This document shows, piece by piece, positions 14,791-26,978 of a stretch of 47,793 bases of DNA (the first letter of the stretch is position 1; the number at the start of each line of letters is the position of its first letter). Location: positions 1 through 47,793 of the forward strand of contig CAIMVM010000088.1 of assembly GCA_903844895.1 (NCBI GenBank). The letters run 5' to 3'. Below the pieces are notes generated by a model, which made no database searches, was not told where the DNA came from, and saw nothing but the letters and a program-made list of their open reading frames with translations. The DNA is from an uncultured Pseudomonadota bacterium. Lineage in GTDB: Bacteria > Bdellovibrionota_B > Oligoflexia > Oligoflexales > CAIMVM01. The position numbers and the translations under genes were made by a program.

Positions 14791-14990
14791 AAAATGAATC
14801 TATTGTCTGTTCACCGCTAGGGTGCGTCCTATCACCCAGAGGGCAAGCTACTTTTTGAGCAATTTTTAGGTTCTTTCCCCAATCTCCTCAGGCCAAAAAC
14901 CCGCCGTTCAAAGGGAATTTCTTTAATTTGGAATGTGCCGGCTATTGGTGTAGGCTCCACGAAAGTCAGGACCAGATTCTAGAGGTTTCT

Positions 14991-17603
14991 TTGAAAAACG
15001 TATTTGTTGTACCACACACTCACTGGGACCGTGCCTGGTACCTACCGTTTGAAGTGTTTAGGCATCGTCTGGTCCGATTTGTCGATAGAGTGCTGCAAGT
15101 ATTAGAAGAAAACGATTCGTTTACCAGTTTTACTTTGGATGGACAGACTGTAGTCCTCGATGATTATTTAGAAATCAGGCCAGAGAACCGCGAGAGGATC
15201 AAGCGCCTAGCAGCTAGTAACAGGATGGAGATGGGTCCCTGGTATACACTTCCAGATCTCATGCTCGCGAGTGGCGAGTCCTTGATTCGAAATATCGAGA
15301 TGGGTTTGAAGCATGCTAAAGAGTTTGGTGGAGGGATGAGGGTTGGCTATGTTCCGGATCCCTTTGGTCATCCAGCCGAACTTCCGCAGGTTTTGGCTGG
15401 CTTTGGTATAGATACCTTCATTTTTATGAGGGGAATTTCTTCCGAATTAAAGTCCCGGGCAGGAAATCACTTTATTTGGAAATCGCCAAGCGGATCTGAA
15501 GTATTAGCGATCTATCAGCCTGGAGGCTACCTAGAAGCTTCCGCTTTAGGATACCCAGAGCAGTGGGGGAGGAACGAGGGACGAGAGCCAGACCTTGAGT
15601 TAGCCAGAAAAAGACTTATGGAGGGGATAGAAGGGGCTTTAAAGCTACAGAGCGAGGCCTCACCGATATTGCTTCCTAACGGTTGTGACCATATGCCTAT
15701 CCAAGCAGAACTTCCAAAAATTATAGAAGATCTCAATCGATCAGGGATGTCACTTTCCATTTCAAACTTATCCCGATATACCAGCGCACTAAAATCAGCA
15801 GCAAAAGATTTGCCATCTTATTCTGGCGATCTTTTGGGAAATGTAGATCATCCGATTTTAAGTAGTGTCTGGTCCACCCACATCCGGCTTAAGATTTTAA
15901 ATCGTCGCGCAGAAAAAATGTTGACGCGATATGTAGAGCCACTTCAGCATTTGCTTCGAAAGTATGGGCCCTCCCAAGAAGCCTTTGTGGAAGGCATGTG
16001 GAGAAAACTATTTAAAAATCAGGCCCATGACGATATTTGCGGGTGTTCTCACGACGATGTTCATAAAGAAGATGAAGCTCGGTTTCAGCGAATCTTAGCT
16101 CTCTCCCAAGATTTGATCTTAGAGAAATTAGAAGCCTTGGCTCTCTGTGAAGGTTTAGGGCCGGTAGCTGGCAAGATGGCTACGAGGCTATTTCTCTTTA
16201 ATCCAAACCCCACGCCGTTTTTAGGTCGTTTAAGTGCAAAAATTTTGATCCCAAATCCATTGGGTGAGTTTGCCTCGGCGACTCCTGCATCGGCTTTGCA
16301 GTGTCGATTTCCGGATGGAAAAATCATTCCAGTTGCCGTGAAAAGTACGACTGCTACGGACATTCGAAATCGATTTTTAGAGACTACCTGGGGAAGATCC
16401 TATGAGATCTTTTTTCCTGCTGAATTGGAATCCCTTCAATATCAGACCGTCACCATAGAGGAGGTCCCTCAAGAGTTTTCTCTTGAACCCTCGACGAATC
16501 AGATTTCGGGCTATGGTTATGAATTCGAAGCATCCTCTCACCAAATGGTTCTTAGGGGTCAAGAGGAAAACTTTGAATTAAAGGACTTTCTATCTTTTGA
16601 GTGGCAAGAAGATTTGGGTGATACCTACTCTGCAAGTATTACGGAAGGCACTCAAGTTCTTTCTAAAATCGTATTCATCGAACCAAGACAGAGATCCATT
16701 AGGGTGGGCTATGAGCTACATGTTAGGCACTCTTCTGGGCTATCCGTTAAGCCGAAGGCCCTTAATATCTCGGTGGACTTTTGTATCGCCTCTGACGCAG
16801 GACTTGAGTTGTCTATTTACTACAATAATGAAGTTAAAGATGGTCGTCTCAGACTATTAATAAAACCTGGGTTCTCCTGCCAGGAAGCGATTTCAGATGG
16901 TCACTTTCGCTTGCTTAGGCAAGGAAGGAGTCCCCTCTTACCATCCTCCCATGCACCTCGTTCCTACCCTGGAGAGTTGCCTTACGATACCAGGCACCAG
17001 GGCGAGTTTGTTCTCTTGGAAGACTCACGCAGAAATCATAGACTGTGGATAGCGAATCGCGGGCATCCGGAGTGGGAGCTTTTAGAGGATGGGATCGCAA
17101 TTACTCTTCATAGATCTATTGGCATGCTGTCGGTGGGTGGCGGACGTATTAGAGGTTGTCAAGCAGGTCCCAGCATTCCTACTCCTTACGCGCAGGTATT
17201 AGGGGAGCATCGACATGAGTTCTGCTTGGGCTTGAGTAGTCTATCTAGAAATGATGCAACAAGGCGAGCACGTTCCTTTACAACCCCAGTCTTTGTCACG
17301 GAAGTCCCTTACCTACGGTATGCCCAGGGTGGGGGGCAGGAGCTCCAGTCTGAACCATTGCTACAAACTCTTGATCCTCGGTTAGTTCTTACAAGTTGCC
17401 GAAGGAAGGGCGCTGACCTGGAAATAAGAATTTACAATCAATCATCCTCTGCAGATGACTTTATATTGCTTCTCCCGCAGTTTAAAGAGCTCCAAAAAAC
17501 GACCTTAGACGGAGAGAGATTTTTAGAAACTATTAAGTCACAAGATGGAAGGTTTACAATTCACTTTAAACCTTCAGAAATCATTACTTTGAGGTGTTTA
17601 TGA
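14991..17603 (+). CDS. GH38 alpha-mannosidase, MngB-like
   Basis: This is a glycoside hydrolase of about 870 residues with the GH38 layout. VVPHTHWDRAWY at residues 6-17 provides zinc ligands His11 and Asp13, and GYVPDPFGH carries the catalytic nucleophile Asp123. NQAHDDICGCSHDD near 345 holds the second zinc-binding histidine region; C-terminal beta domains follow. Length and the opening resemble E. coli MngB (mannosylglycerate hydrolase). It has no signal peptide, so it acts in the cytoplasm on an imported mannoside. I chose the TTG at 14991 because AGAGG lies six bases before it; a TTG at 14928 would add 21 residues unlike the family. It is the first gene of a four-gene catabolic operon. 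Confidence 0.88.
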   Translation: MKNVFVVPHTHWDRAWYLPFEVFRHRLVRFVDRVLQVLEENDSFTSFTLDGQTVVLDDYLEIRPENRERIKRLAASNRMEMGPWYTLPDLMLASGESLIRNIEMGLKHAKEFGGGMRVGYVPDPFGHPAELPQVLAGFGIDTFIFMRGISSELKSRAGNHFIWKSPSGSEVLAIYQPGGYLEASALGYPEQWGRNEGREPDLELARKRLMEGIEGALKLQSEASPILLPNGCDHMPIQAELPKIIEDLNRSGMSLSISNLSRYTSALKSAAKDLPSYSGDLLGNVDHPILSSVWSTHIRLKILNRRAEKMLTRYVEPLQHLLRKYGPSQEAFVEGMWRKLFKNQAHDDICGCSHDDVHKEDEARFQRILALSQDLILEKLEALALCEGLGPVAGKMATRLFLFNPNPTPFLGRLSAKILIPNPLGEFASATPASALQCRFPDGKIIPVAVKSTTATDIRNRFLETTWGRSYEIFFPAELESLQYQTVTIEEVPQEFSLEPSTNQISGYGYEFEASSHQMVLRGQEENFELKDFLSFEWQEDLGDTYSASITEGTQVLSKIVFIEPRQRSIRVGYELHVRHSSGLSVKPKALNISVDFCIASDAGLELSIYYNNEVKDGRLRLLIKPGFSCQEAISDGHFRLLRQGRSPLLPSSHAPRSYPGELPYDTRHQGEFVLLEDSRRNHRLWIANRGHPEWELLEDGIAITLHRSIGMLSVGGGRIRGCQAGPSIPTPYAQVLGEHRHEFCLGLSSLSRNDATRRARSFTTPVFVTEVPYLRYAQGGGQELQSEPLLQTLDPRLVLTSCRRKGADLEIRIYNQSSSADDFILLLPQFKELQKTTLDGERFLETIKSQDGRFTIHFKPSEIITLRCL

Positions 17604-18508
17604 AGGTTACAGGAACATTTTTAGATGAAATTACTCATGATATTTCGTCGCAAAATTGGAGTGAAGAAGATTGGGCCAAAGACTTTGACGCCATGAAAGA
17701 GGACGGCATCGATACTGTGATTTTAATTCGAGCCGGCTATCGGGAGCGCGCGACGTTTGACTCTAAAGTTCTGAATAGAAACTTCAAAATGATGCCGGCC
17801 TACGAAGATTTGGTAGATCTTTACCTACGCGAAGCCGAGCGAACAGGTATGAAATTCTTTTTTGGAACATATGATTCAGGCGATCTTTGGAATGAGGGTC
17901 ACTACAAAGAGGAAGTGGAAGTCAATAAAGATTTTTGCAGCGAAGTTATGGAAAAATACGGTGATCGACGCGCTTTTTCAGGTTGGTATATTTCCCATGA
18001 AATCAATACATTCTCTGATGGTATGATGGGCGTTTATACAGATCTTTCTGAGCATTTGAAAAAGCTTAAATCCCTACCCATATTGATTTCCCCCTATATC
18101 AAAGGAGTCAAACAGTTTCCTGGCGAAGCCATCAGTCTAGAACATCATATTGAAGAATGGGATCAGGTATTTAGAAGGCTTGAAGGTTTGGTGGACATTG
18201 TGGCCTTCCAAGATGGGCACGTCCCGCTCGAATACCTGCCTGACTACTTGACAGCAAATCGAGAGCTTGCAACAAAACGCGGGATTGAATCCTGGTCCAA
18301 TGTTGAGTCGTTTGATCGCGATGTTCACATTAAGTTCCCGCCCATAGACTTTAGAAAGCTGCGATACAAGATGGAACAAGCAGAAAAAGCTCATATGTCG
18401 AAACTGATCACATTTGAGTACTCGCACTTTATGAGTCCCCACGCAGATCATCCCGCAGCCCGCGCTTTGAACAGAAAGTACCGCAGGTGGCAAAGGAGCC
18501 TAAAATGA
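17600..18508 (+). CDS. DUF4434-type TIM-barrel protein, putative glycosidase
   Basis: The 302-residue protein begins MKVTGTFLDEITHDIS and continues with WAKDFDAMKEDGIDTVILI, the usual opening of the DUF4434/DUF5109 TIM-barrel group related to glycoside hydrolases. Acidic residues at barrel strand ends (FSGWYISHEIN, DIVAFQDGHV, LITFEYSHFM) could be catalytic. There is no signal peptide. Its ATG overlaps the TGA of the mannosidase gene and its own stop overlaps the next start, so translation is coupled on both sides. Context suggests that it trims or recognises the same mannoside. The activity is not established. Confidence 0.75.
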   Translation: MKVTGTFLDEITHDISSQNWSEEDWAKDFDAMKEDGIDTVILIRAGYRERATFDSKVLNRNFKMMPAYEDLVDLYLREAERTGMKFFFGTYDSGDLWNEGHYKEEVEVNKDFCSEVMEKYGDRRAFSGWYISHEINTFSDGMMGVYTDLSEHLKKLKSLPILISPYIKGVKQFPGEAISLEHHIEEWDQVFRRLEGLVDIVAFQDGHVPLEYLPDYLTANRELATKRGIESWSNVESFDRDVHIKFPPIDFRKLRYKMEQAEKAHMSKLITFEYSHFMSPHADHPAARALNRKYRRWQRSLK

Positions 18509-19674
18509 ATTCCCGGAAGATACAGGACCTTCTTAAGGTCTACGAAAATGAACTTTTTAGCCGCGTCATTCCCTTTTGGGAGAAGCATTCTTTAGATATT
18601 CAGCATGGCGGATATTTCAACTGTCTCGACGCTGATGGTACAGTTTATGACAGAACCAAGCACATTTGGCTTCAAGGCCGACAGGTTTGGATGTTTTCAA
18701 AACTCTATAATACGGAAGTCCAAAATCCTGAGTGGTTGAAAATAGCTAAAAGCGGCGCGGAGTTTTTAAGAAGGCATGCCATCCTACCTGACGGTCGCGT
18801 GATGTTTTCTTTGTCTGAGGATGGAAAGCCTGTCCAGTACCAACGTAAAATGTATTCCGCCTGTTTCGTTGCTTTGGGTTTTTCCGAGTATGGGAAAGCA
18901 AGTGGAGATTCCTGGTATAGCAATAAAGCTCAGGAGCTTCTTAGGCAGATTTGGCGATGGGCCTTTCATCCAGAGGATCTCAGAGGACCTTCCTTTGAAG
19001 GAGAAACTCCCTCACAAACTCTTGCGGTGCCTATGATACTTCTGAATCTCTTTGAAGAAATTTGTGGTCCAGATATTTCGAAGTGGTCCAAAGAAATCGA
19101 GTTCTGCGTCGAGGAGATGCTGGAACATGTAAATACCCAACAGAAAATGGTTTTTGAAAATGTGGGCCCTAAAGGTGAGCTCCTGGATTCTCCCCAGGGC
19201 AGACTTATAAACCCTGGGCATGCCATCGAAGGAGGCTGGTTCTTGATGCATTGGGCCAAGCGTTTCAATCGTCCTGACTGGAAAAATCATGCCCTGAACA
19301 TGGCAAGATGGTCCCATGAGCTGGGTTGGGATAAAGAGAAGGGCGGATTGTTTTACTTTATCGATGCCAAAGGATTTTCGCCTCTACCTCTTGAATGGAA
19401 TATGAAACTGTGGTGGCCCCATTGTGAGGCTTTGTACGCTCATTTGCTTAATTTTAAAGAGACTGGTGACGCAAGAGACTGGGAGTTATTTTTGACCACC
19501 CACGAGTACACATTTTCCCATTTTCCAGATTCCCAACATGGGGAGTGGTTTGGTTATTTGGACCGCAGTGGTGAGGTTACTCATAGGTTTAAAGGAGGCC
19601 CCTACAAAGGATGCTTCCACGTACCTAGGGCGCTTTGGTTAGTAAAAAGATTGTTAAAGGAGTTTTCGCTATGA
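18505..19674 (+). CDS. AGE-family epimerase (N-acylglucosamine 2-epimerase-like)
   Basis: This is an (alpha/alpha)6-barrel sugar epimerase/isomerase of 389 residues. Family landmarks are HGGYFNCLDADG, KHIWLQGRQVWMFSKLYN, NPGHAIEGGWFLMHWAKRF with the catalytic His, KLWWPHCEALYA with the second His, and YKGCFHVPRALW. AGE enzymes interconvert GlcNAc/ManNAc, cellobiose epimers, or mannose with fructose or glucose. After a mannosidase, conversion of released mannose or a mannose-ended disaccharide is the most natural role. The ATG at 18505 overlaps the preceding TGA and has AAGGAG six bases upstream. Confidence 0.9.
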   Translation: MNSRKIQDLLKVYENELFSRVIPFWEKHSLDIQHGGYFNCLDADGTVYDRTKHIWLQGRQVWMFSKLYNTEVQNPEWLKIAKSGAEFLRRHAILPDGRVMFSLSEDGKPVQYQRKMYSACFVALGFSEYGKASGDSWYSNKAQELLRQIWRWAFHPEDLRGPSFEGETPSQTLAVPMILLNLFEEICGPDISKWSKEIEFCVEEMLEHVNTQQKMVFENVGPKGELLDSPQGRLINPGHAIEGGWFLMHWAKRFNRPDWKNHALNMARWSHELGWDKEKGGLFYFIDAKGFSPLPLEWNMKLWWPHCEALYAHLLNFKETGDARDWELFLTTHEYTFSHFPDSQHGEWFGYLDRSGEVTHRFKGGPYKGCFHVPRALWLVKRLLKEFSL

Positions 19675-21524
19675 GTACCCTAACCTGGATTGACTATATC
19701 ATTATATTGATGTCCATCAGCATAACTCTATGGCTGGGCTTCGCCATGCAAAAAAAGGCATCCAAAGGTATTTCCTCTTTTTTTCTTGGGGATAGAAATA
19801 TTCCATGGTGGGCCCTGGGTGCTTCAGGAATGGCTTCCAATATTGATGTGTCGGGAACCATGGTCATTGTAGCTTTGATTTACGCACTAGGAGCCAAGGC
19901 CCTCTATATTGGCATTCGAGGTGACGTGGTACTTGTCATGGCCTTTTTCATGATTTTTATGGGCAAATGGTCCAGGCGAGCGGGCGTGATGACCATGGCC
20001 GAATGGATGACATTTAGATTTGGGGTTACAAGAGAAGGGCAGACAGCGCGTGCACTAGCTGCCATCAGCCAGTTGGTAGTTCATGTCTGGCTTATTTCCT
20101 ATTTTGCAGTGGGGGGAGGGAAGTTTTTAGCGGAACTTATGGGTATAAATGGTGTTATTTTGGGGATGAGTGCTCCTCAACTGGCCTCTATTCTTCTGAT
20201 TTCTCTGGGCCTTGTTTACACGCTGGCCTCCGGATTTTATGGAGTCGTTTGGACAGATGTTATCCAGGGAGGATTTATCCTTTGTGCGGTCGTATATATT
20301 GTGATTAAGGCCATGAGCTTAGTCCATGTTTCCGACGAATTTATGGTTTCTTTGCCTGCTGGAAAAGACTTCGTTCCTTTTTTGAATCATTTTGAGTCTT
20401 GGTCCAGTATGTGGCCTTCTAAAAATCTTTCTCTTCCTGATACAAGTGACTATGCCAATTACAATCTCTTTGCACTCACTGTTAGTTTTTATGTTTTAAA
20501 AACAATTGTCGAAGGATTAGGCGGTGCTGGGGGCTATATGGGTCAAAGGTATTTTGCGGCCCGCTCCGATCGAGAGGCGGGGTTGCTATCGCTATTTTGG
20601 ATTTTTCTACTTTCATTTAGGTGGCCATTAGTAACGGCATTTGCGCTTCTAGCGCTTGACTACTCAACTCATTACGGTGCTATTTCTGATCCGGAACTTA
20701 TACTTCCGGCAATCATTAACACTTATGTTCCCATTGGTTTTAAAGGACTATTAGTCTCCAGTTTTTTGGCGGCTGCGCTTTCTACCTTTACCGCTATCAT
20801 CAATGCAGGCTCTGCTTACTGGACGAAAGATATCTATCAGGCCTTCATTTCAAAAGACGCGTCTGAAAAAAATCTCGTCAGACAAAGTCGCTGGGCTTCT
20901 CTTTGGATCGTTGTCTTAGGTGTTGCGTTTTCCTTTCCGGTTGTGAATGTGAATGATATTTTTGGTTGGTTAACTCTAGCCTTCGGCCCAAGTCTTTTTA
21001 TACCTTTGGTTCTCCGTTGGTACTGGTGGCGCTTTAACGGTTGGGGGTTTGCTTGGGGCACTCTTCTAGGTATGATCGGAGCCGTTGGGGTTCGCTTCCT
21101 TCCTTTAGGAGGCTTTTTGGACCAAGTCAAAGCGATGCATCTTATGGAAGCTTGGAATTTGTTTGTTCCATCTTTGCTGAGTCTAACGGGTTCTATTCTG
21201 GGTTCTATGCTTACTAACCCAACTGATAAAAGTGTGCTTAAAAACTTCTATTTTAAGACAAAGCCGTTTGGCTTTTGGGGTAAAATCCATGATGAACTCC
21301 CCCTTAAAGATCAATTAGAAATTTCCATCGAAGCAAAACGTGACGTTTTGGGTATTCTTATGGCGGTTCCTTGGCAAATGGCTTTATTTATGACGGGCAT
21401 ACTTTTTGTTATGAAACGTTGGGATCACTTTTCGTTGGCATTGGGAATATCATTGATTTTGACGGTAGGACTTTACTTTGGGTGGTACCGCCATCTGTCA
21501 GATACAACCACGGAACCTAAATAA
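19671..21524 (+). CDS. Sodium:solute symporter (SSS family)
   Basis: This is a polytopic transporter of 617 residues with about 13-14 membrane segments. Typical SSS features include FFLGDRNIPWWALGASGMASNID near residue 35, TMAEWMTFRFG, a SGFYGVVWTDVIQG segment, and AALSTFTAIINAGSAYWTKDIYQ near 380. A sodium gradient would drive uptake of a sugar or glycoside. The ATG overlaps the stop of the epimerase gene, with AAAGGAG upstream. It closes the operon and probably imports the substrate of the mannosidase, which explains why that enzyme has no signal peptide. Specificity is unknown. Confidence 0.92.
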   Translation: MSTLTWIDYIIILMSISITLWLGFAMQKKASKGISSFFLGDRNIPWWALGASGMASNIDVSGTMVIVALIYALGAKALYIGIRGDVVLVMAFFMIFMGKWSRRAGVMTMAEWMTFRFGVTREGQTARALAAISQLVVHVWLISYFAVGGGKFLAELMGINGVILGMSAPQLASILLISLGLVYTLASGFYGVVWTDVIQGGFILCAVVYIVIKAMSLVHVSDEFMVSLPAGKDFVPFLNHFESWSSMWPSKNLSLPDTSDYANYNLFALTVSFYVLKTIVEGLGGAGGYMGQRYFAARSDREAGLLSLFWIFLLSFRWPLVTAFALLALDYSTHYGAISDPELILPAIINTYVPIGFKGLLVSSFLAAALSTFTAIINAGSAYWTKDIYQAFISKDASEKNLVRQSRWASLWIVVLGVAFSFPVVNVNDIFGWLTLAFGPSLFIPLVLRWYWWRFNGWGFAWGTLLGMIGAVGVRFLPLGGFLDQVKAMHLMEAWNLFVPSLLSLTGSILGSMLTNPTDKSVLKNFYFKTKPFGFWGKIHDELPLKDQLEISIEAKRDVLGILMAVPWQMALFMTGILFVMKRWDHFSLALGISLILTVGLYFGWYRHLSDTTTEPK

Positions 21525-21707: not shown

Positions 21708-22046
21708 CTACATCGCCCCTTTTGATCTGAGTACATTTTGCATTTGTACCCCGTGCACTAAAGTGATGCCTGCCTCCATCGCAGAAACTATATGCAAGGC
21801 TTCGTGCATTTGTTCAGGATTAGAGCCGTTTTCAAGGCAAGCCGTGGTGTAGGCATCAATACAATAAGGACATTGTTTAGCAAATGCCACTGCTAGGGCA
21901 ATAAGGCTCTTTTCTCGTTTAGAAAGAGCTGAATCTGTCCCCGTGACATCATTGTAATAAGCCCAGAATTTATCCATCTTTTCTTTAGCAAAAGTTCCTA
22001 CTTCGCCAAATTTTTTAAGGTCGGAAGATTCGTAATAGTTCGCCAT
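21708..22046 (-). CDS. Arsenosugar-associated AhpD/carboxymuconolactone decarboxylase-like protein
   Basis: This is an all-helical 112-residue protein of the AhpD/CMD superfamily. The redox motif CPYC lies at residues 59-62 within ALAVAFAKQCPYCIDAYT. The position that is His in classical AhpD (CxxCxxxH) is Tyr here, as I recall for the arsenosugar-associated subgroup. The start has GGGGAC upstream. It lies 31 bases downstream of the ArsS-like gene on the same strand. The partnership with ArsS supports the assignment; its chemical role in the pathway is not known. Confidence 0.85.
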   Translation of the reverse strand: MANYYESSDLKKFGEVGTFAKEKMDKFWAYYNDVTGTDSALSKREKSLIALAVAFAKQCPYCIDAYTTACLENGSNPEQMHEALHIVSAMEAGITLVHGVQMQNVLRSKGAM

Positions 22047-22077
22047 AGTGTGTCCCCAAGAAAGTAAATAGCTTATG

Positions 22078-23058
22078 TTAAATTAAACTACCGCCACAAC
22101 TGGAGCCTTCTCCCGCTGTGCAGCCATAACAGTGATTTGCAACTTGAATCTTTCGTTTAGAAAACGTCTCAAAATCAATATCAAAAAGAGTTAAGGGTTT
22201 TTCATTCTTCTTAAAATCCATGTTTAACATTTGATTGAAATCACAATCAAACACCCTTCCGTCATAGCCAACACTCAGCATGTTTCGGCACATAACGCTT
22301 TCTGCCGCGCCCAAGTTAAAGGCTCCATGAAGCTTTTCCATATACTCCTCAAAGGAGCCCAGCTTTTTAAGCTGATAGGCAAAGCGATTTATCGGCATAT
22401 TGGTAATTGCGTAGAGTTTTGAAAATTCTATGTCAAATTTTTGTTTCAATTCTCTCTTGTAGTCATTTTCAAGACTCTTCTGTGAAGCAGGTAAAAAAGG
22501 ACCTACTGGATTGTAAACAAGATCGAGAGTGAGCCCGGTGTCAAGCTTTCCATAACCAAGCTGGTTGAGGACTTGAAGGGATTTAATTGACTTTTGAAAG
22601 ACTCCATCACCTCTTTGCCGATCTGTAAAATACTCTTGGTAGTAGGGGAGAGAGGAGACGATCTCCACACGATGTTCCCTGAAGAACTCAGGGAGATACT
22701 CCATCGATTCACCGGTTAAGGGATGAGGATCCCATGTGACTGTGAGATTGTGTCTCACTATGACCCGGCGACGAAGGCGGGAGACTTCGCTCGAAAACCA
22801 CTTAAAATCTGGATGAAGCTCGGGAGCTCCGCCCGTTAAATCAATGGTGGAGACTCTCGTATCAGCTTCTAAAAGAGCTAAGGCTCGCTCTAAAAGACCA
22901 CGAGACATAGCTTCGCGTCGACGAGGTGAGGAGTCGACATGACAGTGAGTACAAGCTTGATTGCACATTTTAGTCAGATTGAGTTGCAGTGTATCTATGG
23001 TTTTAGGGGAAAAATCAATTTTTGTATTTTCTATTTTAGTTGAAAAATCGGTGATCAT
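22078..23058 (-). CDS. arsS: ArsS-type radical SAM protein (arsenosugar biosynthesis)
   Basis: This is a radical S-adenosylmethionine enzyme of 326 residues. LNLTKMCNQACTHCHVD places the 4Fe-4S cysteines at 32, 36 and 39. TIDLTGGAPELHPDF is the SAM-binding GGE-like motif. The C-terminus, HCYGCTAGEGSSCGGS, is the Cys-rich SPASM-like tail characteristic of ArsS. ArsS forms the carbon-arsenic bond between the adenosyl group and methylated arsenic. I chose the ATG at 23058, which has GGAAAG upstream; an upstream ORF extension is unlike the family. No arsM methyltransferase is adjacent. It is cotranscribed with the AhpD-like gene. Confidence 0.9.
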   Translation of the reverse strand: MITDFSTKIENTKIDFSPKTIDTLQLNLTKMCNQACTHCHVDSSPRRREAMSRGLLERALALLEADTRVSTIDLTGGAPELHPDFKWFSSEVSRLRRRVIVRHNLTVTWDPHPLTGESMEYLPEFFREHRVEIVSSLPYYQEYFTDRQRGDGVFQKSIKSLQVLNQLGYGKLDTGLTLDLVYNPVGPFLPASQKSLENDYKRELKQKFDIEFSKLYAITNMPINRFAYQLKKLGSFEEYMEKLHGAFNLGAAESVMCRNMLSVGYDGRVFDCDFNQMLNMDFKKNEKPLTLFDIDFETFSKRKIQVANHCYGCTAGEGSSCGGSLI

Positions 23059-23209
23059 CGGTCTCTTTCCGGTCAGCGTGTATAGGTTATAGGGGATTGT
23101 TGTTTGTTTTTTCTGCCAATGCAATTGTATTCGTCAAATAGGGCTTTCAGATAGACCTATTGAATACAGCTAATTGAGACGCCTATATCGGCTTATCTAT
23201 CGGTAATGA

Positions 23210-23776
23210 TTAGGAAACTTTGATGTTCTGGAAATGGGTGGTTTTATTGCCAAAAGTCTTATAAATCCTCACCCCGGAAAGTCGAATGCCGAGTCTCATG
23301 GATTCTTCATCTCTAAAAACTTCTGGAGTGGGACCAGTGTAGGCTTCCAGTTCTTCCTGATCTTGGAAAGGGTAATGTTCGGGGAAAGCGAGACTTAGAA
23401 GCCTATAGAGTGAGTTTCCTTTCAGAAGCTCCAGTAGGCGCTGCTAATTCAGCGGAGACTCGTGGCAGATGCCAGGCCGGATATCCGTAACGATTGTAGA
23501 GATGCACACTCACGGAATCTGAAGCCTATAGTTTCGAGAGACAAATTTTTACATCGTATAGGGATTTTCAAGCTTCGAGGTGTCTTTTCATGCTTTTCTT
23601 TGTCGACATAACCATTTCTCAGGGAATCTTTACCAAGGGCTAGGACAGGGCCGCCAGCAAAAATCAAACCTAACCCTATGGAAAGCGCATAGGCATCCTG
23701 AACGACGAAGCATTGTAATTTCCTGTGATTGAAGGGAAGTAAAACGTTTGGGCCATAAGCGACCGATCAGTTTCAT
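23210..23776 (-). pseudogene. Decayed gene with at least two frame breaks
   Basis: Three overlapping open stretches on the minus strand are each protein-like but lie in different frames. The N-terminal part (23449-23766) contains ALSIGLGLIFAGGPVLALG, which resembles a signal peptide. The middle part contains VHLYNRYGYPAWHLPRV and stops at 23403. The C-terminal part (23210-23443) contains YPFQDQEELEAYTGPTPEVF and MRLGIRLSGVRIYKTFG. A possible original ATG is at 23776 without a binding site. The simplest reading is a frameshifted exported protein gene. The family is not recognised. The rest of the gap (23059-23209, 23777-23986) shows nothing further. Confidence 0.45.
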
Positions 23777-23986
23777 GACGAACGTGCGTGCAGTTTGTCA
23801 AGTTTATTGACTTGTCTCTCGGAGGTTGCGGATTCGGTAACATACCCGAAACCTTCCACGGTCTATTTTTGCGATGCGCTTCATCTGGGTTTTATGACAA
23901 ACGAATTTAAAAAGCCCCTTGACTGCAGATGCCAGACAAGAACGCAGTTTTCAGTAGTAATTTAAGAGGAATACTGTTCAAACGAT

Positions 23987-25402
23987 TTAGGAAACAATGT
24001 CTGCACTATGGGAAGTGTCCTTAAAACCTTGTTTTTGTAGCAGACGTTGGCATGTCTCTCGGAGTTTTAGGCTCAAATCAACGCCTTCTTTTAGCATTTC
24101 GGCAATGTCATCCACCGTGTCGACGTCAGTTAGGGTCTCTAGGAAAGCTGGAGTGCTAGGCAGGGATTCACAGAGTTTATGAAAGGTATCAGGATCCGAC
24201 CATGGCGTTGACTTCCAAACCCTTCTCTCTAGGGGTTCTTTGCCGCCAAAGAGCCAAAACCCTCCGTCACTAGCAGGCCCTATGACATAATCTTGAGCGT
24301 CTAAATAAGTGCTCGCTTTTTCAAAGTGGGCCTTACTAATTTGTGGCGCATCAGATCCAATGAGGATCACCCGACCAAATTGGGTGATTAATTTCGAATA
24401 AACATGATGGATTTTGTCACCAAGGTCACCGTCCGATTGTATTATTCTGGAAAAACTGCGCCATTCCTTAAAATAGTAGGCATCGGCTTCTGATATCGCC
24501 CAGTAGATAGTTACATTCTTGAGCCCACCGAGAGTTTTTGAGATTTCACTTAATGCTTGTCGTTGAAAGTTTTCCGCTTCTTTAAGCCCAATGCTCCGCG
24601 ACAGGCGTGTTTTCATGTGAGAAAGTCCGGGCGTCTTTACAAAAACGGCAACTGCAGTTGTTTTTTTTGTTTTCGAAAAGATACTTTGGATCATATAGGG
24701 TAGGGCTTGCTTCCAGGTAAGGTAGAAAAAACGTGTTGTTGTGGCAAGCCAGCCTTGATGTCTATAGCGACGTGAACTCGTGGTTATTTTATATCCAATT
24801 GGCCGCAGCGACAAACCATAAGCTTTTGCGCGCCAAATCAAATCATGCCCTTCTCCGTAAGGGACAGATGTGGAAAAGCCTCCTAACTTGCGAAAGTTTT
24901 CTTTTGAGATAAAAAGTCCTTGGTCTTCAAAAGGCATTTTGAATACAGAAGATCGAAAGTTTGCGCCTATGGCGTTGAGATGGCAGAGAAGGGGGCCATC
25001 TCGGTCAAAGAAAAGGCGACCATAGCCTATCGAGTCAGGCGCCTGTTCCGCAAATGTTAAGACTTTACGAAGAGCGTCATCATCTAAATAAGAATCAGCA
25101 TGTAAAAACCAAAAAAACTTGGCTTGAGATAGTTGTGAGGCGGAGTTTAGCTGGCGGGCGCGTCCCTGAGGGGCAGAGATCCATTGAAGTTTATTGTGAT
25201 CCCACAAGGGATCAAAAGGAGTGTTGTTCAGGATCTTCTTGGCGTCGTCGTGAGAAATGGCCATGCCTTGTTGATGGGGGCTGGGTTGGCCGATGGACAG
25301 GGAGATCCTAACAGGCCAGCTGGAAATAATATCTAAGAGGCCTCGAAGCTTATCTTCGGCCGGCAAAACTGGGATGATGATTTCAATATCTATTGGGGAC
25401 AT
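23987..25402 (-). CDS. Fused TIGR04283-TIGR04282 arsenosugar glycosyltransferase
   Basis: Two enzymes are joined in one chain of about 471 residues. Residues 1-235 are a GT2-type TIGR04283 domain with APQGRARQLNSASQ, FFWFLHADSY and PFEDQGLFISKENFRKLGGF. Residues about 245-440 are a TIGR04282/DUF2064 domain with AVFVKTPGLSHMKTRLSRSI, ILIGSDAPQI and IGPASDGGFWLFG. These two families are usually separate neighbouring genes in arsenosugar clusters, where they are proposed to build the glycosyl part. The ATG at 25402 lacks a ribosome binding site; a TTG at 25456 is an alternative start. It diverges from the histidine-rich lipoprotein gene. Confidence 0.88.
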   Translation of the reverse strand: MSPIDIEIIIPVLPAEDKLRGLLDIISSWPVRISLSIGQPSPHQQGMAISHDDAKKILNNTPFDPLWDHNKLQWISAPQGRARQLNSASQLSQAKFFWFLHADSYLDDDALRKVLTFAEQAPDSIGYGRLFFDRDGPLLCHLNAIGANFRSSVFKMPFEDQGLFISKENFRKLGGFSTSVPYGEGHDLIWRAKAYGLSLRPIGYKITTSSRRYRHQGWLATTTRFFYLTWKQALPYMIQSIFSKTKKTTAVAVFVKTPGLSHMKTRLSRSIGLKEAENFQRQALSEISKTLGGLKNVTIYWAISEADAYYFKEWRSFSRIIQSDGDLGDKIHHVYSKLITQFGRVILIGSDAPQISKAHFEKASTYLDAQDYVIGPASDGGFWLFGGKEPLERRVWKSTPWSDPDTFHKLCESLPSTPAFLETLTDVDTVDDIAEMLKEGVDLSLKLRETCQRLLQKQGFKDTSHSADIVS

Positions 25403-25506
25403 AGGACAATTTAGAAACCTTATTTTTTCCAACAGGCTAGATTTCGATTGAGACAATTGTCATTCAAACGTATAATTGCGAAATTGTCCAGCTGAAGGAG
25501 TTTGAA

Positions 25507-26216: not shown

Positions 26217-26978
26217 GTGGATCAAATCCTAAGTGCTGTGAATTTGGGCGACTTAGTCATTATCTTGCAGCTCATCATTTTAGAAGGTCTTTTAAGTTTT
26301 GATAATGCTCTGGCATTGGCGGCGCTGGTTTCAAGGCGCCTGAAAGACAAGGATGAGCAGAAAAAAGCCCTCACCTTTGGGATTTGGGGTGCCTATCTGT
26401 TTCGCACAATCACAGTTTTCCTAGGTGTGTGGCTCATGCGCCATGAGTGGATTAAAGCAGCCGCAGGTATCTATCTAGTACAGATGGGGATTTCCGAGCT
26501 TTTCTTTAAGAAGCCCCACTTTGAAGAAGAAGCAGTTTCAGCAGAAAAAGAGTCAAGAAATTGGTTTCGTTTTTTGAAGCTTTCTCCGCTTTGGTCAACG
26601 ATAATTGCCGTTGAAATGATGGATATAATGTTTTCTATTGACTCCATTGCCGCAGCGCTCTCGCTTTCTGATAAGGTTTGGGTATTAATGGCAGGTGCTG
26701 TGCTGGGAATCCTTATGATGCGAATTGCTGCTCAAGCATTTGTCGTTCTTATCAATAAGTTTCCCGTCCTTGAAAAAACAGCATTTGTTTTAGTCCTATT
26801 GGCTGGTATCAACGTATGCCTAAAGTTGAAAAATCTTGATTTAGGTTTCATGGTGCTTACGATTGATAAGCCAATTCCAGAGCATTTGTTTACGACTCTG
26901 CTCTTTTCAGTTTTTTTAGGGTCATTGATTTTAAATGCCAAGTTTCCACATTGGTTTCAAAAGCCAAAGGCTAGTTGA
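26217..26978 (+). CDS. TerC-family integral membrane protein
   Basis: This is a 253-residue membrane protein with about seven helices. Family signatures are LEGLLSFDNALALAALV in the first helix and VEMMDIMFSIDSIAAALSLS in the middle, where the paired acidic residues inside membrane segments are the conserved metal-binding positions. TerC/Alx-type proteins export manganese or contribute to tellurite and metal stress tolerance. The GTG start follows AGGGAG. It is 14 bases after the histidine-rich lipoprotein gene and is probably cotranscribed with it. Confidence 0.9.
   Translation: MDQILSAVNLGDLVIILQLIILEGLLSFDNALALAALVSRRLKDKDEQKKALTFGIWGAYLFRTITVFLGVWLMRHEWIKAAAGIYLVQMGISELFFKKPHFEEEAVSAEKESRNWFRFLKLSPLWSTIIAVEMMDIMFSIDSIAAALSLSDKVWVLMAGAVLGILMMRIAAQAFVVLINKFPVLEKTAFVLVLLAGINVCLKLKNLDLGFMVLTIDKPIPEHLFTTLLFSVFLGSLILNAKFPHWFQKPKAS

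Follow-up and report, generated by a model that had tools for sequence, protein, structure and literature searches.

During oxo-arsenosugar biosynthesis, arsenic is adenosylated by a radical SAM enzyme, as stated in PMC12159101, which cites Cheng and others 2021 on ArsS. For the arsenic methyltransferase ArsM, the conserved cysteines of CmArsM are residues 44, 72, 174 and 224, as given in PMC5552862. In the literature covered here, the later steps of the bacterial pathway, those beyond ArsS, carry no assignment other than family names. The titles and abstract openings searched yielded no report of a fusion between the two late transferases or of the reaction of either one.

A gene cluster of the arsenosugar type

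The stretch of DNA analysed here (the window) is 47,793 nucleotides long and is the whole of one contig (C88) in an assembly of 372 contigs with 95.61% completeness and 1.8% contamination. It contains the following features.

21708..22046, minus strand: AhpD-like arsenosugar-associated protein, TIGR04169, 112 aa, with a CPYC motif (NCBIfam 149.4 bits, cut-off 120)
22078..23124, minus strand: arsS, arsenosugar radical SAM protein, TIGR04167 (NCBIfam 416.2 bits, cut-off 300)
23125..23986, minus strand: 862-bp gap with weak minus-strand coding traces, a possible gene remnant
23987..25456, minus strand: fusion frame encoding a GT2-type TIGR04283 domain followed by a CofC-like TIGR04282 (DUF2064) domain; likely start at ATG 25402
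24661..24668, minus strand: run of eight A residues (A8) at the junction of the TIGR04283 and TIGR04282 domains
24848..24850, minus strand: GGG codon (Gly) at the TIGR04283 position that aligns with the aspartate of the ED motif

The original prediction had named ArsS, an AhpD-like partner and a protein joining TIGR04283 to TIGR04282, and the NCBIfam matches show that these names are correct. Pfam agrees, assigning CMD to the AhpD-like protein and Radical_SAM with DUF3641 to ArsS. The ArsS translation carries the CxxxCxxC signature of a radical SAM protein as CNQACTHC, together with a C-terminal CYGCTAGEGSSCGG motif; an alternative ATG start is possible at 23058. Only 31 bases separate arsS from the AhpD-like gene, whose product is 70-74% identical to that of the arsS-adjoining gene in four relatives (G019, G020, G026 and G032). 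These family matches support a predicted cluster of the arsenosugar type.

A separate location for arsM

The window had been described as lacking arsM. This description is accurate for the window, since a genome-wide family search placed no arsM match on its contig, but it does not hold for the genome. The same search, which had been proposed as a check, returned one strong match in the same assembly, a 353-aa protein encoded at G000:C245:3433-4518(-). The apparent lack of arsM therefore came from viewing a single contig.

This protein matches NF008823 with an E-value of about 5e-49 to 6.5e-49, and its 167 bits lie below the cut-off of 263, as do the 170 bits of ArsM from a relative (L015). 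It matches the arsenite methyltransferase 5evj in the PDB at E 3.7e-91 and reaches about 1e-82 with 4kw7, 4fr0 and 5eg5, which we take to be the Chlamydomonas and Cyanidioschyzon enzymes. Alignment pairs its four cysteines (in NAC, GCG, SNC and GEC) with cysteines of 5evj, so that the genome encodes an ArsM with the conserved cysteines. The adjacent gene, presumably lepA from its sequence, is single-copy in this genome and has matches in 50 of 54 genomes at E <= 1e-60. Identity is 100% for its own match, 64 to 77% within the order and 57 to 65% within the class, a pattern that agrees with contig C245 coming from this order and gives no obvious sign of contamination. Absence of arsM from the organism is ruled out by the family matches, the cysteines shared with 5evj and the lepA-like neighbor taken together.

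Unlinked arsM genes are usual in this group. Among 58 genomes of the phylum, 12, including this one, encode an ArsS that exceeds its cut-off, and arsM adjoins arsS in only three of them (G015, G018 and G045). Gene layouts were read from 20 fetched regions. G015 and G018 have the same four families as this genome, but their arsM, arsS, TIGR04283 and TIGR04282 genes are contiguous and unfused, and the two transferase genes share 4 bases; here arsM lies elsewhere and the two transferases form one protein. The fetched stretches of G015 and G018 contain no match to the AhpD-like gene that stands beside arsS in the window. Five other genomes (G019, G020, G026, G031 and G032) pair arsS with an AhpD-like gene, which in G031 is cut by the contig end, and carry the two transferase genes elsewhere. 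In G026 and G032 the transferase genes follow a weaker ArsM-like gene that is about 30% identical. Because several contigs end near the genes of interest, missing neighbors are no proof of absence.

Architecture and proposed role of the fused protein

The TIGR04283 domain occupies residues 25-252 of the fusion. It scores 137.9 bits with NCBIfam, below the cut-off of 182, as does the corresponding protein of an unfused relative (L015). This cut-off is exceeded in only one of the 58 phylum genomes, and nearly all members fall below it. The TIGR04282 domain (residues 269-451) exceeds its cut-off at 143.1 bits versus 134. Pfam recognizes Glycos_transf_2, DUF2064 and CofC. The genome has just this one TIGR04282 domain, and the other TIGR04283 matches shown for it are weak, at less than 49 bits.

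An AlphaFold2 model of the fusion has a mean pLDDT of 85.8 and a pTM of 0.60, a value that leaves the relative placement of the two domains unsure. Model confidence is low over the 18 N-terminal residues of the longer frame, which favors the ATG at 25402, where the original prediction had placed the end, as the start of a 471-aa protein. Foldseek ranks 3cgx first, followed by the two-domain chondroitin polymerase entries 2z86 and 2z87. It also recovers the CofC-like 2i5e, Rv2983 (6bwg and 6bwh; presumably FbiD) and the 3-phospho-D-glycerate guanylyltransferase 7p97. The N-terminal half matches GT2-type enzymes by fold. For residues 268-468, a sequence match to 3cgx (E 6e-15) accompanies the structural one. 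The C-terminal half is thus predicted to have the CofC nucleotidyltransferase fold, which it shares with 3cgx and with the CofC/FbiD-type nucleotidyltransferases 6bwg, 7p97 and 2i5e, even though NCBIfam names its family a glycosyltransferase. It remains far under the cut-off for the CofC family itself (TIGR03552, 29.3 bits versus 105) and is not assigned as a 2-phospho-L-lactate guanylyltransferase.

We favor, with a probability of roughly 0.6, an ordinary bacterial route to arsenosugars that is encoded at two sites in the genome and whose late transferases are fused, a nucleotidyltransferase feeding a GT2 enzyme. ArsM from contig C245 would methylate arsenite, and ArsS would use SAM to add a 5'-deoxyadenosyl group. 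Supplying or handling reduced thiols would probably fall to the AhpD-like protein. The fused protein would act at a later stage. Its CofC-like domain would most likely activate a phosphorylated intermediate of sugar (or glycerate) type by coupling it to a nucleotide. The GT2-like domain would transfer the activated intermediate, which would be handed from one half of the chain to the other. We infer these reactions of the fused protein, along with what the AhpD-like protein does and any continuing activity of the GT2 half.

Recurrence and origin of the fusion

The two domains were expected to be encoded normally by separate genes. This is so in most relatives, but it is not an exclusive rule. 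Thirteen genomes of the phylum encode TIGR04283 at 100 bits or more, and the domain is fused in the window only (a 490-aa frame, compared to 233 to 301 aa in the others). Named genomes gave 492 confirmed loci. Of the best 80 of these, 55 encode the two domains in separate frames, 24 have one or no recognized domain, and one, from Ignavibacteriales (L136), has a fusion. A 48-bit domain cut was used for these 80 loci; the TIGR04283 half of L136 falls below it, and NCBIfam shows the protein to be fused.

Additional fusions are found in the phylum of L136 and in Gammaproteobacteria, the class of another locus (L104). A draw of 395 genomes from the former phylum has TIGR04282 at E <= 1e-12 in 236. 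Ten listed frames were checked, nine with lengths between 411 and 476 aa and a shorter one of 367 aa, and eight are fusions with both domains over their curated cut-offs. Four have the domain order of the window and four the reverse; the count is a lower bound, made among the matches listed. In 274 Gammaproteobacteria, TIGR04282 occurs at E <= 1e-25 in 146 genomes and 148 places. Twelve of these places lie in frames of at least 410 aa. Two of the twelve are true fusions, and in the other ten no match to TIGR04283 reaches E 1e-5. At least 11 fusions besides that of the window, four of them reversed, are therefore confirmed in Bacteroidota-type and gammaproteobacterial genomes, and a fusion unique to this genome is ruled out. 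The proposed survey of relatives thus gives one fusion in 13 genomes within the phylum and 11 more in other lineages.

A tree of 105 TIGR04282 domains, built by a quick method with SH-aLRT support only, places the domain of the window among unfused relatives that include most Oligoflexales. A branch with a support of 96 separates it from all 11 fused rows. This tree requires at least five switches between the fused and the unfused state. Many inner forks are open, so the exact neighbors of the domain are unsure. Two alignments that included TIGR04283 were dropped: most TIGR04283 rows had 11-16% identity in one, and the consensus of the other mixed both domains. Since the domain groups apart from the 11 other fusions, the fusion of the window arose independently of its counterparts in other lineages, in what is a variation on a known pathway.

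Separate origin and the occurrence of both domain orders make functional coupling of the two domains, in our view, likelier than a chance joining of neighbors. The original prediction took the fusion as support for direct cooperation of the two activities, and this view is strengthened by the same pair being fused in other lineages, even in reverse. Recurrence in both orders points to two transferases that act together, and the single proteins could be expressed to find the reaction.

The L136 cluster encodes arsM, the fused TIGR04283-TIGR04282 protein, a DUF547-type protein, an AhpD-like protein and ArsS. Its fusion has the same domain order and the same partners as that of the window. The two fusions differ in being only about 22% identical, and the L136 genes lie in one cluster and retain an intact ED motif. 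In L136, L177, L179, L180 and L184, the fusion is followed by a protein that we take to be DUF547-type. An AhpD-like gene and arsS come next in four of these five loci and were not found on the short stretch available for L180. The DUF547-type protein is possibly another member of the pathway. The reversed fusions of L178, L181, L182 and L183 are near or overlap an arsS frame. A 367-aa frame at L186:3890-4990 (+) in genome G117 matches TIGR04282 and the AhpD-like family TIGR04169, both over cut-off, and is on these scores a further putative fusion between arsenosugar proteins.

An altered ED motif in the GT2-type half

The aspartate of the ED motif is usually considered the catalytic base of GT2 enzymes. 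In an alignment of 85 TIGR04283 domains, an Asp follows the conserved Glu in 84, and the window alone has Gly. Its GGG codon would have to change twice to become either codon for Asp, so the substitution is not accounted for by one wrong base. The window also has Glu in the DQG motif, where 80 of the 85 domains have Gly. Altogether it deviates at two of 11 near-invariant columns; two changes are seen in four of the 85 rows, the window included, and three changes in one. The TIGR04282 half is unremarkable, with one deviation in 18 such columns. Judged from these residues, the GT2 half may be impaired, and the lost Asp, which the original prediction had not noted, cuts against a fully active fused enzyme. 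With its changed motif, the fusion of the window is a weaker choice than the intact ones for expression aimed at finding the reaction.

The missing Asp could mean that the GT2-like half is a non-catalytic scaffold or binding module. The fusion would then be in practice a nucleotidyltransferase, with the last transfer lost or carried out by another enzyme. The possible gene remnant next to the fusion adds to this case. However, the GT2 half is open and folds with fair confidence, and it retains GRARQLN, HADS, TSSRRY and, if the Glu for Gly is allowed, DQG. Its C-terminal partner has no excess of changes, and the role of the Asp as base is general GT2 knowledge. We consider a scaffold role possible but on the unlikely side. 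A combined version, in which TIGR04282 and TIGR04283 form a two-step unit fused several times in both orders and the GT2 half has become here a substrate-binding pseudo-glycosyltransferase on losing its catalytic Asp, seems to us doubtful.

The gap between arsS and the fusion

A decayed gene had been proposed between arsS and the fusion. The coding traces behind this proposal are present but weak, and no relative of the supposed gene was found. The gap has no stop-free stretch of more than 105 aa. The summed best coding score of its three minus-strand frames is reached by none of 500 dinucleotide shuffles, whereas 37 of the 500 equal its best single coding segment and 101 its longest open frame. 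Pfam gave no match at E 1 to any of five translated pieces. For a frame of 77 aa, nothing in the other 53 of the 54 genomes matched better than E 0.06, and a search of 198 loci with pieces from all six frames gave no match at E 0.5. A remnant of a decayed gene is nevertheless plausible.

Two other candidates for the content of the gap were rejected. For a conserved RNA, Rfam gave no match up to E 1. A remnant of arsM or another pathway gene is likewise discarded: when the gap was compared with a panel of proteins of the pathway, taken from the window and from relatives, the best match apart from the start of ArsS itself was a 37-residue ArsS piece at E 0.042.

If the remnant is real, it might belong to a decaying arsS locus that no longer makes arsenosugars, leaving ArsM merely to methylate arsenic. 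The lost ED Asp and the unlinked arsM would fit such decay. We think it improbable, because neither arsS nor the AhpD-like gene is shortened, both exceed their family cut-offs, and unlinked arsM genes are common in relatives.

Integrity of the fusion frame

The claim that both domains belong to one protein is borne out by a single open frame that survives insertion and deletion tests at the A8 run. When the length of this run was varied by script from -2 to +2, only the observed length kept a single frame. At all four altered lengths, the stretch from the last stop to the conserved beginning of the second domain lacks ATG, GTG and TTG, so a frame error at A8 would leave this domain unable to start with any of these codons. 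An artefact of assembly or sequencing that joined two adjacent genes, which a homopolymer at the junction and an assembly in 372 contigs might suggest, is very improbable given this result and the same architecture in 11 other genomes.

The A8 run itself is unremarkable, since the window has six A or T runs of 8. Its position exactly at the domain junction makes it a possible slippage site, though nothing speaks for programmed slippage there. With one base lost from the run by script, the first domain stops shortly past the junction, at approximately the length of its unfused relatives.

Flanking genes

Sugar genes at 14928-21524 on the plus strand of the window encode mannosylglycerate-hydrolase-like, N-acylglucosamine 2-epimerase-like and sodium/solute symporter proteins, all below curated cut-offs. 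On the other side of the cluster, a YkoY-family (TerC-like) membrane protein is encoded at 26217-26978, also on the plus strand, and matches TIGR03716 above its cut-off.
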